Made by a program: the position numbers and the translations under genes. This document shows, one piece after another, positions 44,649-49,959 of a stretch of DNA of 64,000 bases (its first letter is position 1; each line of letters starts with the position of its first letter). The notes below the pieces were generated by a model. That model worked only from the letters and a program-made list of their open reading frames with translations, had not been told where the DNA came from and did not search any database. This stretch comes from Pseudobdellovibrionaceae bacterium (GTDB lineage: Bacteria; Bdellovibrionota; Bdellovibrionia; Bdellovibrionales; Bdellovibrionaceae): NCBI GenBank assembly GCA_019637915.1, contig JAHBUV010000001.1:1272565-1336564 (forward strand), read 5' to 3'.

Positions 44649-46460
44649 ATGAGCTTACTTCGCTGGCTCCTGCCTTTGGCCTTCATGCTCCCGACGCTTC
44701 CCGCCTGGTCCTTCGACGAGGCCGATCCCCTGTTGGTCGAGGCCCGCCTCGAGCCCGTCGACTGGAACCCCGGCCAGGCCGGGCGTTTGACGCTGAAGCT
44801 CACGTTGCCGGAAGGCTACCACGGCTACGAGGACCAGTTCCGCCTGACGCTGCTGGAACCCGACGGCTTCCATCTGGGCCCCTGGAAAGTGGCGCCGGTC
44901 CATGAGTTCTACGACAAGTTCTCCAAAAAACACCGCCGCGGCATGAAGACCACGGCCGAGATGACGGCGGGCGTGGAAGCGCCGTCGCGTTTCGCCCGCG
45001 ACGAAAAGCGCATGCGTTTGGAGCTCGTCTACCAGGCCTGCTCGGACAGTTTCTGCCTGTTCCCGACAACAAAAATCATTGATGTTCCTTTGACTCTGGT
45101 CGGAGCGCCCGTTTCCGAAAAGCCCGCCGGCGGCCGCGTCGCCTCCCCGCCCGCCGACGACGGCATGATGCCGATGTCGTGGCTGTCGACGGATCAGCTG
45201 AACCGCCTGTTGGGCGAGAGCCGCGTGCTCGCCTTGTTCTTCGTTTTCCTGGCGGGCATTCTCACCAGCTTCACGCCCTGCATTTTCCCGATGATCCCGA
45301 TCACCCTCGCCATTCTCGGCCATCATGCCGAACAGCGCAGCCGGCTGCAGAACTTTTTGCTGAGCGTGTGTTACGTCCTGGGCATCGCTTCCACCTACTC
45401 GATCATGGGCGTGATCGCCGCCACCAGCGGCGCCGTGTTCGGCGCGAGCCTCGGCAACCCGTGGGTGCTGGGCGTGATCTGTTTTCTGTTCCTGGTCATG
45501 TCCTTCAGCATGTACGGCTTTTACGAACTGCAGGTGCCGGCTTTCCTGCGCAACTCCCTGGGCGCGCGCAAATCCGGGCCGGGCTACGTGGGCGCTTACG
45601 GCTCGGGTTTGATCGCCGGCATCGTCGCCAGTCCCTGCGTCGGGCCGGTGCTGGTCGGCATCCTCGCCTGGGTGGCGACGACGGGTTCGAAGCTTTTCGG
45701 TTTCCTGCTTTTGTTCTCTTACGCCCTGGGCCTGGGCCTGATCTTCCTGTTCCTGGGCGTCTTCACGGAGTTCACGCGCCGCCTGCCGCGCTCGGGGCCC
45801 TGGCTCGAGACGGTGAAGTTCGTGCTGGGCTCTTTGATGCTGGGGGCGTTTTATTACTACCTGTCTTTGCTGGTGCCGCAGAGCTGGCACGACGCCGCGC
45901 TCGGTTTGGGCCTGGTCATTCTCGGCAGCTTGGGCGGCGCCTTCGCGCCGCTGAAGGGCACGACGGCTTTCAAGAAAATCAAGAAGGGCCTGTCGCAGGC
46001 TTTTTTGATCCTCGGTTTCGGCTATCTGGTTCTGGGCGTTTTCGATCTGCGGCCGTTCATTCAGGTGCGCATGATGGATCCGGGGGCTTCAGCAGGGCCG
46101 GGCGTCCGTTCTCTGGAGTGGCAGCCTTACAGCGAAGAGGCCCTGCAGGCCGCGGCAGTGGCCCGTCAACCGGTCATCATCGACTTCTGGGCCGAATGGT
46201 GCGCCGCCTGCCACGAGCTCGAGCAGCACAGTTTCAGCCATCCCCGCGTGCGGGCATTGCTCGGCTCTTTCGTGCGCTTGAAATACGATGCCACCAAGGA
46301 CAGCGCCGACCTGCGCGCTTTGAAAAAGCGCTGGAAGATCCAGGGCCTGCCGACGGTCCTGTTCGTGAATCCCAACGGCGTGTGGCTGGAAGGCCTGACC
46401 CTGACGGAGTTCGAAAAGCCCGAGGCTTTCATCCGCCGCGTTGAGAAGGCGATGAATTAG
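44649..46460 (+). CDS. dsbD: Thiol:disulphide interchange protein DsbD
   Basis: 603 residues. After a signal peptide, an N-terminal immunoglobulin-like domain with ACSDSFCLFP (the CxxxxC pair), then eight membrane helices with SFTPCIFPMIPITLAIL and VASPCVGPVLVGILAW carrying the two central Cys, and a C-terminal thioredoxin domain with DFWAEWCAACHELEQHSF. All three redox pairs are intact. It moves electrons from cytoplasmic thioredoxin to periplasmic DsbC, DsbG or cytochrome-maturation proteins. The ATG start gives the signal peptide directly. Confidence 0.95.
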   Translation: MSLLRWLLPLAFMLPTLPAWSFDEADPLLVEARLEPVDWNPGQAGRLTLKLTLPEGYHGYEDQFRLTLLEPDGFHLGPWKVAPVHEFYDKFSKKHRRGMKTTAEMTAGVEAPSRFARDEKRMRLELVYQACSDSFCLFPTTKIIDVPLTLVGAPVSEKPAGGRVASPPADDGMMPMSWLSTDQLNRLLGESRVLALFFVFLAGILTSFTPCIFPMIPITLAILGHHAEQRSRLQNFLLSVCYVLGIASTYSIMGVIAATSGAVFGASLGNPWVLGVICFLFLVMSFSMYGFYELQVPAFLRNSLGARKSGPGYVGAYGSGLIAGIVASPCVGPVLVGILAWVATTGSKLFGFLLLFSYALGLGLIFLFLGVFTEFTRRLPRSGPWLETVKFVLGSLMLGAFYYYLSLLVPQSWHDAALGLGLVILGSLGGAFAPLKGTTAFKKIKKGLSQAFLILGFGYLVLGVFDLRPFIQVRMMDPGASAGPGVRSLEWQPYSEEALQAAAVARQPVIIDFWAEWCAACHELEQHSFSHPRVRALLGSFVRLKYDATKDSADLRALKKRWKIQGLPTVLFVNPNGVWLEGLTLTEFEKPEAFIRRVEKAMN

Positions 46461-47056
46461 GGCTGCTCTCTGGCGGGGGCGCCGTTTCCGTCCAGTTGAC
46501 GATTCACCTGAACCCAGCTTGCTCCTAGCCAAATCACCGGTTGAGGCAGATCGCCTTGTCCCCACCGGTCCTCCTCTTTTTTGCGACTGCGGCCATCGAA
46601 GCCAGCTTTCGAAAAAAAGGCGATTCCCTGTTCACGAGAGATCGGCAGGACAAAACCCACTTCCGCTCCAAAAGCATAATAGACTTGTCCTTTTTCGGCC
46701 CACCCAAGGCCCAAGGCTTCCACCCGATAATAAGGGCTCACCGTACTGGCGTCGGAGAGCATGGGATGCCGACCGAAATTAAAGAGGTTCAGCTGGGCAT
46801 AACGCGGCTTCGTCTGATTCAAGAATCCAAATTCAGCGGATAAGCCGAACGGAAGACCACGGGCATTCGCAAGCCCCACTCGCAACGCCTCGGAATAATG
46901 AAAATCATTCGATTCCGAACTGACAGGTGCCATCAAACTGTATTCAAAATTCCCTAAAATCTCCCCCAGTTTGGGAGCAGATGTCGCCCATGCAGTTTGC
47001 GACAAAATTAAGATGCAATTGGCGACGACAACTCTATACCGAGAACTGATTCCCAT
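46457..47056 (-). CDS. Exported protein of unknown function, barrel-like
   Basis: 199 residues with a signal-like N-terminus (VVVANCILILSQTAWATSA). The rest alternates short aromatic strands (LGLGWAEKGQVYYAFGAEVG, GIAFFSKAGFDGRSRKKEED), as in small outer-membrane barrels. GC content drops from this gene into the island to the right, and its ribosome site is weak. It overlaps the dsbD stop by 4 nt, convergent. No family recognised; possibly recent arrival or a decaying gene. Confidence 0.55.
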   Translation of the reverse strand: MGISSRYRVVVANCILILSQTAWATSAPKLGEILGNFEYSLMAPVSSESNDFHYSEALRVGLANARGLPFGLSAEFGFLNQTKPRYAQLNLFNFGRHPMLSDASTVSPYYRVEALGLGWAEKGQVYYAFGAEVGFVLPISREQGIAFFSKAGFDGRSRKKEEDRWGQGDLPQPVIWLGASWVQVNRQLDGNGAPAREQP

Positions 47057-47090
47057 TTCGCCAATATAATGCAGGCGTCCTATTAGGACA

Positions 47091-47218
47091 ATGGATTGAA
47101 TGGATTGAATGGATTGAATGGATTGAATGGATTGAATGGATTGAATGGATTGAATGGATTGAATGGATTGAATGGATTGAATGGATTGAATGGATTGAAT
47201 GGATTGAATGGATTGAAT
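47091..47218. repeat. Tandem array of a 9-bp unit (ATGGATTGA), about 14.2 copies
   Basis: Fourteen exact head-to-tail copies of ATGGATTGA plus two bases, with no mismatch. It starts 34 nt upstream of the start codon of the exported-protein gene. The unit is a multiple of three, so a frame stays open across it (N-G-L repeats on one strand, I-H-S on the other), but nothing suggests translation. Confidence 0.97.
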
Positions 47219-47474
47219 CAGACTTCCAAAAATTTGGAAGCAGAAATTTCATACGATTTGGTCCGATGCGGACAAGCGCCGCAGCATTTTTATTTTTTCT
47301 CCATCTTGTCTTTTTATATTTATTCAGAGAGGCATTGACCATCATGCCCCCTGCATTTCTCTTATACAGCTACACACTGTATATGCGCCTATGGGGACGG
47401 CACAATTTTTCGAATCGTCCGCCTATTTTAGGCTCTACAAGTGACCGCTAAAAAATCCCACACTCTACAACTGA
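47219..47474. other. AT-rich spacer between two arrays
   Basis: 256 nt without a convincing gene. It contains a 13-nt near-palindrome GTCCGATGCGGAC (47261-47273) that recurs exactly inside the HNH gene (48573-48585). Nothing else is recognised. Confidence 0.6.
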
Positions 47475-47612
47475 ACCAATTACCAATTACCAATTACCAA
47501 TTACCAATTACCAATTACCAATTACCAATTACCAATTACCAACTACCAACTACCAACTACCAACTACCAACTACCAACTACCAACTACCAACTACCAACT
47601 ACCAACTACCAA
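47475..47612. repeat. Tandem array of a 7-bp unit in two blocks (ACCAATT x9, ACCAACT x10)
   Basis: Nineteen head-to-tail heptamers: nine ACCAATT (47475-47537) followed by ten ACCAACT (47538-47607) and a partial unit. Each block is internally perfect, differing by one base. It ends about 85 nt before the HNH protein start codon. Confidence 0.97.
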
Positions 47613-47697
47613 AAAACTTACGATCAACAATATAAAAATAATTGACCATTTGTGAACCTTTATTTATATCTTTTTTACATATTAAAAAGGACCTCAA

Positions 47698-48924
47698 ATG
47701 AGCCAAATCCTCCTGCAAGAAATCAAAAATCTCGTTCAACAAGAACGCCGGATCACGCGCTCGATCTTGGAAAAAATCAATGAAGTCGACCACCGCCGTC
47801 TCTATGCCACTTGGGGATACCCGAACCTCTATGAATGGCTCGTGAAAGACTTGGGCTATTCCCATTCGGCCGCCTACCGGCGAATGCAGGCGGCGAGACT
47901 GTTGAAAAGCGTTCCCGTCGTGTCTGAAAAAATGCAATCCGGCGGAGTGAATCTCTCAACGCTCGCGAAAGTCCAAACGGCCATCCGGCTCGAAGAGCGC
48001 CGCCGCGGGGGGAAAATCAGCTCAGAAACCAAACAAGAGCTCGTCCAAAAAATCGAAAATAAATCCGCCCAAGAAACCGATTTTCTTCTCGCCGAGATTT
48101 TCCCCGAACAAAAGCCCCGACAGGAACACATGCGCGCTCTGCCGGATCAAGAAGTGCGCTTATCCATCACCCTCAACAGCGAACAGCTCGGCAAACTCCA
48201 AAAAGTCCGCGAACTCAGCTCCCACACTCACCTCAACACCACCTGGTCCGAACTCATCGAAATGTTGAGCGACCAATTCCTCAACAAAAAAGACCCCGTG
48301 AGAATGAACCAGCGCGAGCAAAATAAAGCGCGCTCATCTTCCAACCCAATCAAAATTCAAGCTTTCCAACATCTTGTTCAAAAAAATCAAGACCCTCAAA
48401 AACCGTCTGACCATCAGATTTCTCAAGGTTCTCAAAGCCTCCCAGGCTCTCAAAAATCTCAATACCCCCGAAAGAACCAAATTGATCAAACCGCCCAGGA
48501 CTCTGAATCAAGCTCCAACGTTCCTGCTCGCAGCCCATCGCAACCCCTCAATGCCTCATTGACGCAACGCTTGTCCGATGCGGACCGCAAAAGAGTGCGT
48601 CCTGCTTCATTCAAAACTTCGTTCAAAACAAAGCCTCGCCCGGAACCTAAAGCCATCCCTTCAGCTCTTCGACGTAAGATCTGGCTTCGAGATGACGGCG
48701 CCTGCACCTACACCTACCCTCAAACCGGGCAGCGCTGTGGCAGTCGAATTTTAGTGGAAATTGATCATCTTGAACCCAAGGCCTTTGGAGGCCGCCACAC
48801 CGCCGACAATTTGCGTTGCCTTTGCCGCACTCACAACCATTTGGCAGCCGAACAGAAGCTGGGAAGAAATCTCATGGACTTTTACCGCCGTTCCTTCTCT
48901 TTCAAAGAAGTCCAACCTTCCTGA
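47698..48924 (+). CDS. HNH endonuclease-signature protein (DUF222-like N-terminus)
   Basis: 408 residues. Residues 1-200 are helical (RRLYATWGYPNLYEWLVKDL, YSHSAAYRRMQAARLLKSVP) and resemble the DUF222-like N-terminus of HNH proteins. Residues about 205-310 are a low-complexity Gln/Ser/Asn/Pro linker. Residues about 315-395 are an HNH nuclease domain: RRKIWLRDDGACTY, VEIDHLEPKAFGG (His), DNLRCLCRTHNHLA (Asn and His), with Cys residues for a structural zinc site. GC and codon use are unlike the flanking chromosome. AAAAGGACC lies upstream. Free-standing nuclease of unknown target; such genes are multicopy in Bdellovibrio relatives (family knowledge). Confidence 0.85.
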   Translation: MSQILLQEIKNLVQQERRITRSILEKINEVDHRRLYATWGYPNLYEWLVKDLGYSHSAAYRRMQAARLLKSVPVVSEKMQSGGVNLSTLAKVQTAIRLEERRRGGKISSETKQELVQKIENKSAQETDFLLAEIFPEQKPRQEHMRALPDQEVRLSITLNSEQLGKLQKVRELSSHTHLNTTWSELIEMLSDQFLNKKDPVRMNQREQNKARSSSNPIKIQAFQHLVQKNQDPQKPSDHQISQGSQSLPGSQKSQYPRKNQIDQTAQDSESSSNVPARSPSQPLNASLTQRLSDADRKRVRPASFKTSFKTKPRPEPKAIPSALRRKIWLRDDGACTYTYPQTGQRCGSRILVEIDHLEPKAFGGRHTADNLRCLCRTHNHLAAEQKLGRNLMDFYRRSFSFKEVQPS

Positions 48925-49058
48925 GAAAGGTCGAAAGGTCGAAAGGTCGAAAGGTCGAAAGGTCGAAAGGTCGAAAGGTCGAAAGGTCGAAAGGTCGAAA
49001 GGTCGAAAGGTCGAAAGGTCGAAAGGTCGAAAGGTCGAAAGGTCGAAAGGTCGAAAGG
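48925..49058. repeat. Tandem array of an 8-bp unit (GAAAGGTC), 16.75 copies
   Basis: Sixteen perfect GAAAGGTC units plus GAAAGG, beginning at the base right after the HNH stop codon (TGA 48922-48924). The unit is not a multiple of three, so all frames are cycled; frames read through on both strands but none looks coding. Confidence 0.97.
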
Positions 49059-49246
49059 ATTCGACCAGCCACCCTCGCTCATCAAGGGATTTCGTACAAA
49101 AACGTCCACTTTTTTTGTTCACGACTAGCACTTGAACAAGAAAAGCAGAAACCCGCTGAAAACAGGCAAGTTCAAGACAAAATCACAGACCCAAAAAGCC
49201 AATCCCGCATCCAGCATGAAACCAAGACAAGGCCAAAAGCGGAAAA
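49059..49246. other. Non-coding spacer in accessory island
   Basis: 188 nt of AT-richer sequence with no supported gene. No function seen. Confidence 0.6.
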
Positions 49247-49382
49247 GGTCCGTTGGGGGGAAGGGCGGCCTCCGATCGGGACCTCCCGCAAGCCGGAGGC
49301 GTTGGCCGCCAAAGGCGGCCATGCGGGCCTGAGGGCAGGAGCCCGTGTCCCGATCGGAGGCCGCCCTTCCCCCCGACGGACC
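49247..49382. mobile_element. 136-bp element with 36-bp terminal inverted repeats (MITE-like or structured DNA)
   Basis: Arms 49247-49282 and 49347-49382 match as reverse complements at 35 of 36 positions; each contains GGGCGGCCTCCGATCGGGAC or its complement. Inside are a second stem (CCCGCA 49285-49290 with TGCGGG 49322-49327) and a perfect 7-bp hairpin GGCCGCC-AAA-GGCGGCC at 49304-49320. No ORF of its own. A folded RNA, a MITE or a cruciform recombination site are all possible. Confidence 0.7.
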
Positions 49383-49455: not shown

Positions 49456-49959
49456 CTACAGCCGCTTCAGCCGGCTCAACTCCATCTTCGCCTCGTTCAA
49501 AGCCGCCTGAGCGCCCACGACCTGGGCCTCTTTCTCGCTCAGCAGGCGCTGCAGATGGTTCATCCGCACCTCGAAGCTCTTGATGACGTTCGTGTGCCGA
49601 TCCACCATTTCCTGGATTTTCGAATCCAACGCCTTGCGCTCGGCCAGGCGATGCCCCATCTGGCTGATTTTATGGCCGGTTTCCTGCACGAGCCCGTTGT
49701 GGCTCTGCTCCAGGCGGTGCACCTGCTGCTGCAGGCGTTCGAGCTTGAGGTGGCTCACCTTCATGAATTCCTGCGCCTGGGCTGCCATTTTCTTCAGTTC
49801 CTCGCCCACCATCAACACCTGATTGCGCAGCTCCAGGATCTGGCGATCGACGTTCAGGAAGCCCGCCGTCTCCGGCAGTCCCACGGGGATCGTTTCCGCG
49901 GGCGTTGTCCGCGCCGCTCGGCGCTCTCCGAAAATCTCGGGGTTCAGTTCCTTCTGCAT
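49456..49959 (-). CDS. Coiled-coil protein of unknown function
   Basis: 167 residues. After a 40-residue N-terminus, nearly all the rest is predicted coiled coil (heptads from ILELRNQVLMVGEELKKMAA through NEAKMELSRLKRL). No membrane segment or signal. AGGAGGGT precedes the ATG. Its end abuts the accessory island, and the gene to the other side is divergent. A structural or scaffold role is inference. Confidence 0.75.
   Translation of the reverse strand: MQKELNPEIFGERRAARTTPAETIPVGLPETAGFLNVDRQILELRNQVLMVGEELKKMAAQAQEFMKVSHLKLERLQQQVHRLEQSHNGLVQETGHKISQMGHRLAERKALDSKIQEMVDRHTNVIKSFEVRMNHLQRLLSEKEAQVVGAQAALNEAKMELSRLKRL

Follow-up and report, generated by a model that had tools for sequence, protein, structure and literature searches.

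ParB, Noc and KorB proteins bind palindromic sites. Work on the long-standing question of how short tandem arrays originate and expand mostly relies on engineered nickases in yeast or mammalian cells, and nicks beside repeats have been found to yield large expansions in yeast and mouse cells, via fork collapse and template switching (PMC12493176). TIGR arrays are built of edge and loop repeats with spacers and go together with a Nop-domain protein (PMC12045711), and 13E12 repeats are counted among the mycobacterial repetitive elements (PMC10589994). DUF222-HNH proteins are uncharacterised, and in the literature that we searched no report ties arrays to this family. Here we describe a locus at which a DUF222-HNH gene is surrounded by short perfect arrays, together with its relatives, and suggest that the HNH nuclease, or the repair that follows its cuts, probably causes DNA in its vicinity to stutter into repeats.

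The window, i.e. the whole stretch of 64,000 nucleotides of a Pseudobdellovibrionaceae genome that we analyzed, contains a DUF222-HNH gene encoding 408 aa (47698-48924, plus strand), as established from the open reading frame, Pfam, AlphaFold2 models and structure alignment. A 9-bp unit, AATGGATTG, is repeated 14.3 times in a perfect tandem array at 47090-47218 (100% identity; TRF and sequence), upstream of the left palindromes. A 7-bp unit follows at 47475-47612 with 19.7 copies within the leader of the gene (99% identity; TRF and perfect-run scan), composed of two sub-arrays, ACCAATT repeated 9.7 times and then ACCAACT repeated 10.9 times. The stop codon ends at 48924, and on the very next base begins a perfect array of the 8-bp unit GAAAGGTC with 16.8 copies (48925-49058, 100% identity; TRF). 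The original prediction had placed these three arrays, the HNH gene and an inverted repeat here, with the 8-bp array starting one base after the stop codon, and TRF, the list of open reading frames and the sequence itself locate all of them as described. In agreement with its further claims, TRF detects exactly three short arrays in the 64-kb window, the array units share nothing, and GC amounts to 0.38-0.54 across the block vs 0.58-0.65 in the flanks. No comparable array was found in the ~380 kb sampled elsewhere of this genome, and chance origin of such perfect arrays is essentially impossible. The perfect arrays of 129 and 134 bp are near a common assembler k-mer (127) in length and may in reality hold more copies. 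Still, such arrays are no assembly artefact as such, because closed genomes of relatives carry arrays of up to 166 bp.

The window protein is divided by Pfam and AlphaFold2 into a ParB-like N-domain (residues ~12-138), a second alpha/beta domain (143-214), a disordered linker (216-320) and an HNH nuclease domain (322-391). The HNH domain (PF01844) scores 23.6 bits against a cut-off of 21.4, and C336, C347, H357, N371, C376 and H379 are invariant in 40 sequences. The match to DUF222 is weak (17.4 bits, below the cut-off of 24.4), a cut-off that the relatives at L151, L174 and L094 pass. AlphaFold2 predicts the N-domain (pLDDT 94) and the HNH domain with confidence, connected by ~100 disordered residues. 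Structure alignment of residues 12-138 finds the DNA-binding domains of ParB, Noc, Spo0J, KorB and SopB, with Z scores of 5-8.7, the ten best rows all being ParB, Spo0J or Noc; the match to 7o0n (Z 8.7, rmsd 2.6 over 99 residues, ~12% identity) is one of fold only, and a Z near 8 can also come from a common helical arrangement. The structural alignment spans the HTH part only, Pfam gives no match to the N-terminal CTPase domain of ParB and no Nop domain is among its matches, and Foldseek alone returned no match below E 0.001. Structural matches of the HNH domain are McrA, Cap5 and a nicking enzyme from Geobacter. From the predicted fold, the N-domain most likely binds a short palindrome. The window gene is probably a mobile single-gene element of the DUF222-HNH (13E12) type, and the family is multicopy as predicted, with three copies in the window genome and up to 33 matches in one relative.

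The gene is accompanied by candidate palindromic sites. Directly after the 9-bp array, at 47223-47240, lies the palindrome CTTCCAAAAATTTGGAAG, which resembles CACTTCC...GGAAGTG sites in relatives and for which no partner was found inside the window HNH gene. A left palindromic site, GTCCGATGCGGAC, at 47261-47273 is likely the left edge of the HNH element, as suggested by the paired-site analysis and the left sites of relatives. The same paired-site analysis locates a second copy at 48573-48585, in the linker-encoding part of the gene immediately before the HNH domain. These are the only two copies in the window, with zero in the ~380 kb sampled elsewhere. The non-coding leader of the gene (47274-47697, plus strand), broken by the 7-bp array, is assigned in the window by reference to leader alignments of relatives. 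The leader common to paralogues of one genome breaks off abruptly on its left ~255 bp ahead of the start codon; it begins with a palindrome of the ACCGCATCGGT type and contains promoter-like words, and this palindrome is found again within the gene, in the linker ahead of the HNH domain. The left site of relatives falls where leader homology ends, near the insertion edge. In genome G045, 9 of 12 loci (strict pattern) have the left site at -293 to -298 relative to the homology start, and 9 of 12 have the in-gene site at +660 to +765, with just three other copies of the palindrome in 240 kb. Across genera the site sequence varies by locus and the pairing persists, with a score of at least 14 in 25 of 101 loci vs none of 101 mismatched pairings. 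The paired palindrome is no clear predictor of arrays, which are present at 10 of 32 loci with a pair vs 15 of 71 without. A known structured RNA in the leader was rejected, as the leaders of six relatives match no Rfam family at the gathering threshold and nothing convincing appears in the window block.

The window HNH element is placed between dsbD and a coiled-coil gene (49456-49959). In the sole congener genome these two genes are separated by 569 bp without HNH gene, array or inverted repeat, the outcome of a presence/absence comparison of the block put forward with the original prediction, and in two other genera by 50-69 bp. Comparison of the junctions identifies the window HNH block as an insertion. 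Adjoining the block is a minus-strand open reading frame of 199 aa (46457-47056) with no Pfam match, missing from the congener junction and from those of the other genera; it may be part of the HNH insertion or of another one. At one insertion with a known HNH-free orthologue, host homology stops near the left palindrome, with the right edge just past the downstream arrays (approximate bases). Host flanks of close pairs are mostly 88-94% identical and HNH segments 80-85%. Unrelated HNH genes are found at one host locus in different species, sometimes in opposite orientation. The common host loci with unrelated HNH elements (30-45% identity) are L134, L146 and L164; L111, L149, L155, L125 and L176; and L120 and L178, the orientation being opposite twice. 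Such loci are recurrent insertion hot spots.

The inverted repeat was treated by the original prediction as part of the block. At 136 bp with 36-bp arms (49247-49382), it folds as one near-perfect hairpin. Four dispersed copies of 120-140 bp are present in the window genome (here and at L015, L016 and L017), two of them no more than 0.8 kb from an HNH gene and two next to different genes. They conserve a ~70-bp core, and their arms differ in sequence yet stay self-complementary, a pattern that a structured RNA or a hairpin-based mobile repeat would show. Three genomes of another genus contain matches to the core and the searched congener assembly contains none; no Rfam family matches convincingly. 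Proximity to HNH genes holds for half of the copies; the element as a whole is dispersed and mostly independent, and the 136-bp inverted repeat is a separate element from the HNH element.

For the relation between arrays and HNH genes, homologues were picked from relatives by protein similarity alone, together with surrounding stretches of up to 20 kb, giving 127 stretches, 2.46 Mb and 103 homologous HNH genes. Counting perfect arrays with a unit of 4-12 bp, at least 4 copies and at least 32 bp (the window 7-bp array as two), 42 lie within 1.5 kb of or inside HNH genes and none in the remaining 2.05 Mb. The enrichment near HNH homologues that the original prediction had proposed to check is accordingly strongly positive. 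In non-coding DNA only, 38 arrays are found in 84.6 kb near vs none in 193 kb far, with a density that peaks within 500 bp of HNH genes and is zero beyond 1.5 kb. Under equal density the chance of this is ~1e-13, taking the 25 array-bearing loci as the unit. Intergenic segments of at least 150 bp far from HNH genes (97 kb total) hold no array. There are 64 short arrays (at least 16 bp, 3 copies) near HNH genes vs none in far intergenic DNA, and a lax threshold (12 bp, 3 copies) gives 84 near vs 25 far; as far arrays show up at lax thresholds, the detector works in far DNA. Low-complexity 100-bp windows make up 5-6% within 500 bp of HNH genes, 2.4% at 0.5-1 kb and 0.04-0.25% beyond. At L139 (8732-11043), the HNH gene is flanked on either side by several hundred bases of almost nothing but degenerate purine-rich and GATA/TTGA repeats, which look like the remains of arrays that formed and decayed again and again.

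Arrays occur at 25 of the 103 HNH genes. They are not obligatory, because the two other HNH paralogues of the window genome (two of its three) and two related genomes with 13 HNH genes are without them. Thirty Y1-transposase loci of the best-covered genus, g6, served as a control, and one has an array (p 0.0006 against the HNH genes of g6, computed with 22 of 63, the array table giving 21 of 62 with little change); fifteen other fetched loci have none. Hence, neither an absence of enrichment nor arrays equally common beside unrelated genes, the refuting outcome set in advance, was seen. The single control array (L254, 863-1135, genome G045) comprises 14 copies of the 7-bp unit ATGAGTG between two 35-bp inverted repeats, in non-coding DNA adjoining a Y1 (RAYT-type) transposase gene, a hint that other palindrome-acting nucleases may also collect arrays. 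Short paralogues with the ParB-like and second domains only are found at L112, L119, L145, L163, L165, L170 and L174; in L165 and L174, the paired site occurs a second time close to where the short gene ends. Arrays are present at three of these seven HNH-less paralogues (L112, L163 and L165), the term covering only the 205-225-aa forms. Strict cis dependence on an adjacent HNH domain is thus not supported, and any cutting may act in trans, since arrays occur at HNH-less paralogues too. No Ku (PF02735) was detected in G000, G001, G060, G067, G071, G076, G010 and G013, and is present in G007 and all other tested g6 genomes. Array-bearing loci amount to 22 of 66 in Ku-bearing genomes vs 3 of 31 without Ku (p 0.013, confounded by ancestry). 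Ku end joining as a necessary mechanism was rejected, as the window genome has no Ku gene.

Orthologous insertions allow the age of arrays to be compared. In G057 (L151), 41 copies of ACAG come after the HNH gene, and in the sister species G058 (L193) only 5 copies come after the orthologous HNH gene (89-94% identity), an 8-fold difference between species with a common insertion; the orthologous junction in G053 (L194) has neither HNH gene nor array. In other close orthologue pairs the array is present in one species and absent in the other. These alignments indicate that arrays appear or grow late, after the species split, at shared insertions.

Taken together, we propose, with a probability of about 0.47, that this nuclease family binds its own palindromes and cuts nearby, and that slippage during repair grows the arrays. 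The ParB-like N-domain would bind the short palindrome at the left edge of the element and in the gene before the HNH domain. The nuclease on its long flexible linker, or paralogues in trans, would nick or break DNA within ~1 kb of their own sites, and replication or repair across the breaks would slip on chance seeds, generating short tandem arrays of unrelated units. A ParB-like domain, two palindromic sites and a flexibly linked nuclease suggest that the protein sits on its own locus. Local nicking would explain the unrelated units, the arrays on both sides within ~1 kb, their youth and their absence elsewhere; arrays at HNH-less paralogues fit it only if related proteins act in trans. The proposal builds on observed clustering of arrays at HNH genes only, insertion, paired palindromes, a modelled ParB-type fold and in-place growth, from which we infer that the palindromes are bound, that DNA is cut locally and that this cutting makes the arrays grow. 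The suggestion of the original prediction, repeat growth driven by the nuclease or by the repair of its locus, is retained as the best-fitting reading, with the causal role being the inferred part, while the arrays are unlikely to be its substrate in a sequence-specific sense, as the units share nothing. Counted against the proposal are the HNH-less paralogues with arrays, the 78 of 103 genes that are array-free, the lack of clear prediction by the paired palindrome, and L254.

The main rival to local cutting assumes low-rate slippage everywhere, with arrays persisting only in the long unconstrained DNA that HNH elements bring or create, and no role for the nuclease. HNH genes indeed sit in long non-coding, AT-richer stretches (GC 0.42 vs 0.48), and the arrays at HNH-less paralogues and the one in non-coding DNA beside a Y1 transposase would be expected as well. 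This explanation is weakened, however, by the 97 kb of array-free far intergenic DNA, by the short arrays (64 near vs none far) and by the low count at another mobile single-gene family, the Y1 transposases (1 of 30), leaving it a serious yet rather unlikely account. Arrays could also be scars made once, at insertion or excision, with no continuing local cutting; their positions cluster at element edges, and the finding of several HNH families at one locus in either orientation shows that insertion recurs. Arrays that arise or grow after a species split at shared insertions, and the several different arrays that line one element at L139, are difficult to reconcile with a single event, and we consider such scars improbable.

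Clustering at element edges would likewise be expected if arrays came first and the HNH element inserted beside them, the landing site that the original prediction had offered as an option. This is largely contradicted, and has very little probability left, in view of the 2.05 Mb without arrays away from HNH genes, the array-free orthologous sites lacking HNH genes such as L194, and the 8-fold growth in place at an HNH-bearing orthologue. Simple sequence repeats tune expression through promoter spacing in other bacteria, and the arrays in the leader and around the gene might similarly adjust expression of a costly nuclease. The window 7-bp array and an AAGCAA array at L150 do lie in the leader beside promoter or ribosome-binding sequence, but leaders hold only 6 of the 42 arrays, whereas 21 are upstream but not in the leader and 11 follow the stop codon, which makes such phase variation a distinctly remote explanation.

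Local cutting by the nuclease, if causal, would make repeat birth and expansion switchable by deleting or supplying one gene. It is a tentative but real prospect that the mobile DUF222-HNH family binds palindromes of its own element and continually creates and expands microsatellites around itself by local nicking, i.e. that it represents a natural, encoded generator of tandem repeats. One gene family predicts the location of all short perfect arrays in the sampled sequence, and its many paralogues, HNH-less variants and HNH-free control sites provide natural material in bacteria. For the DUF222-HNH proteins, the system offers a test of function and, for many of them, a candidate recognition site.

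Compared to described systems, the present genes share with the DUF222-HNH or 13E12 repeat (REP13E12) family the order of DUF222 followed by HNH and many copies per genome; unlike known REP13E12, they have arrays, and the left palindrome of their leader is matched by another in the linker. The predicted fold of residues 12-138 resembles the HTH domain of ParB, Noc and KorB, yet at ~12% identity, with no match to the ParB CTPase and with a nuclease fused. Free-standing HNH homing endonucleases likewise have an HNH gene between host genes, present or absent among relatives, with turnover at one site; self-palindromes and arrays are, however, not typical of them, and cleavage and homing are putative here. 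RAYT/REPIN systems, a Y1 transposase with palindromic repeats, also combine a single nuclease-like gene with short palindromes, and the L254 array is set between 35-bp inverted repeats, but their enzymes belong to the HUH class and arrays occur at only 1 of 30 Y1 loci. In TIGR-Tas (TasH), an HNH protein adjoins tandem arrays as well, whereas the arrays described here are spacer-free, with plain units of 4-12 bp (7-9 bp in the window), and lie beside a protein whose Pfam matches include HNH and not Nop.
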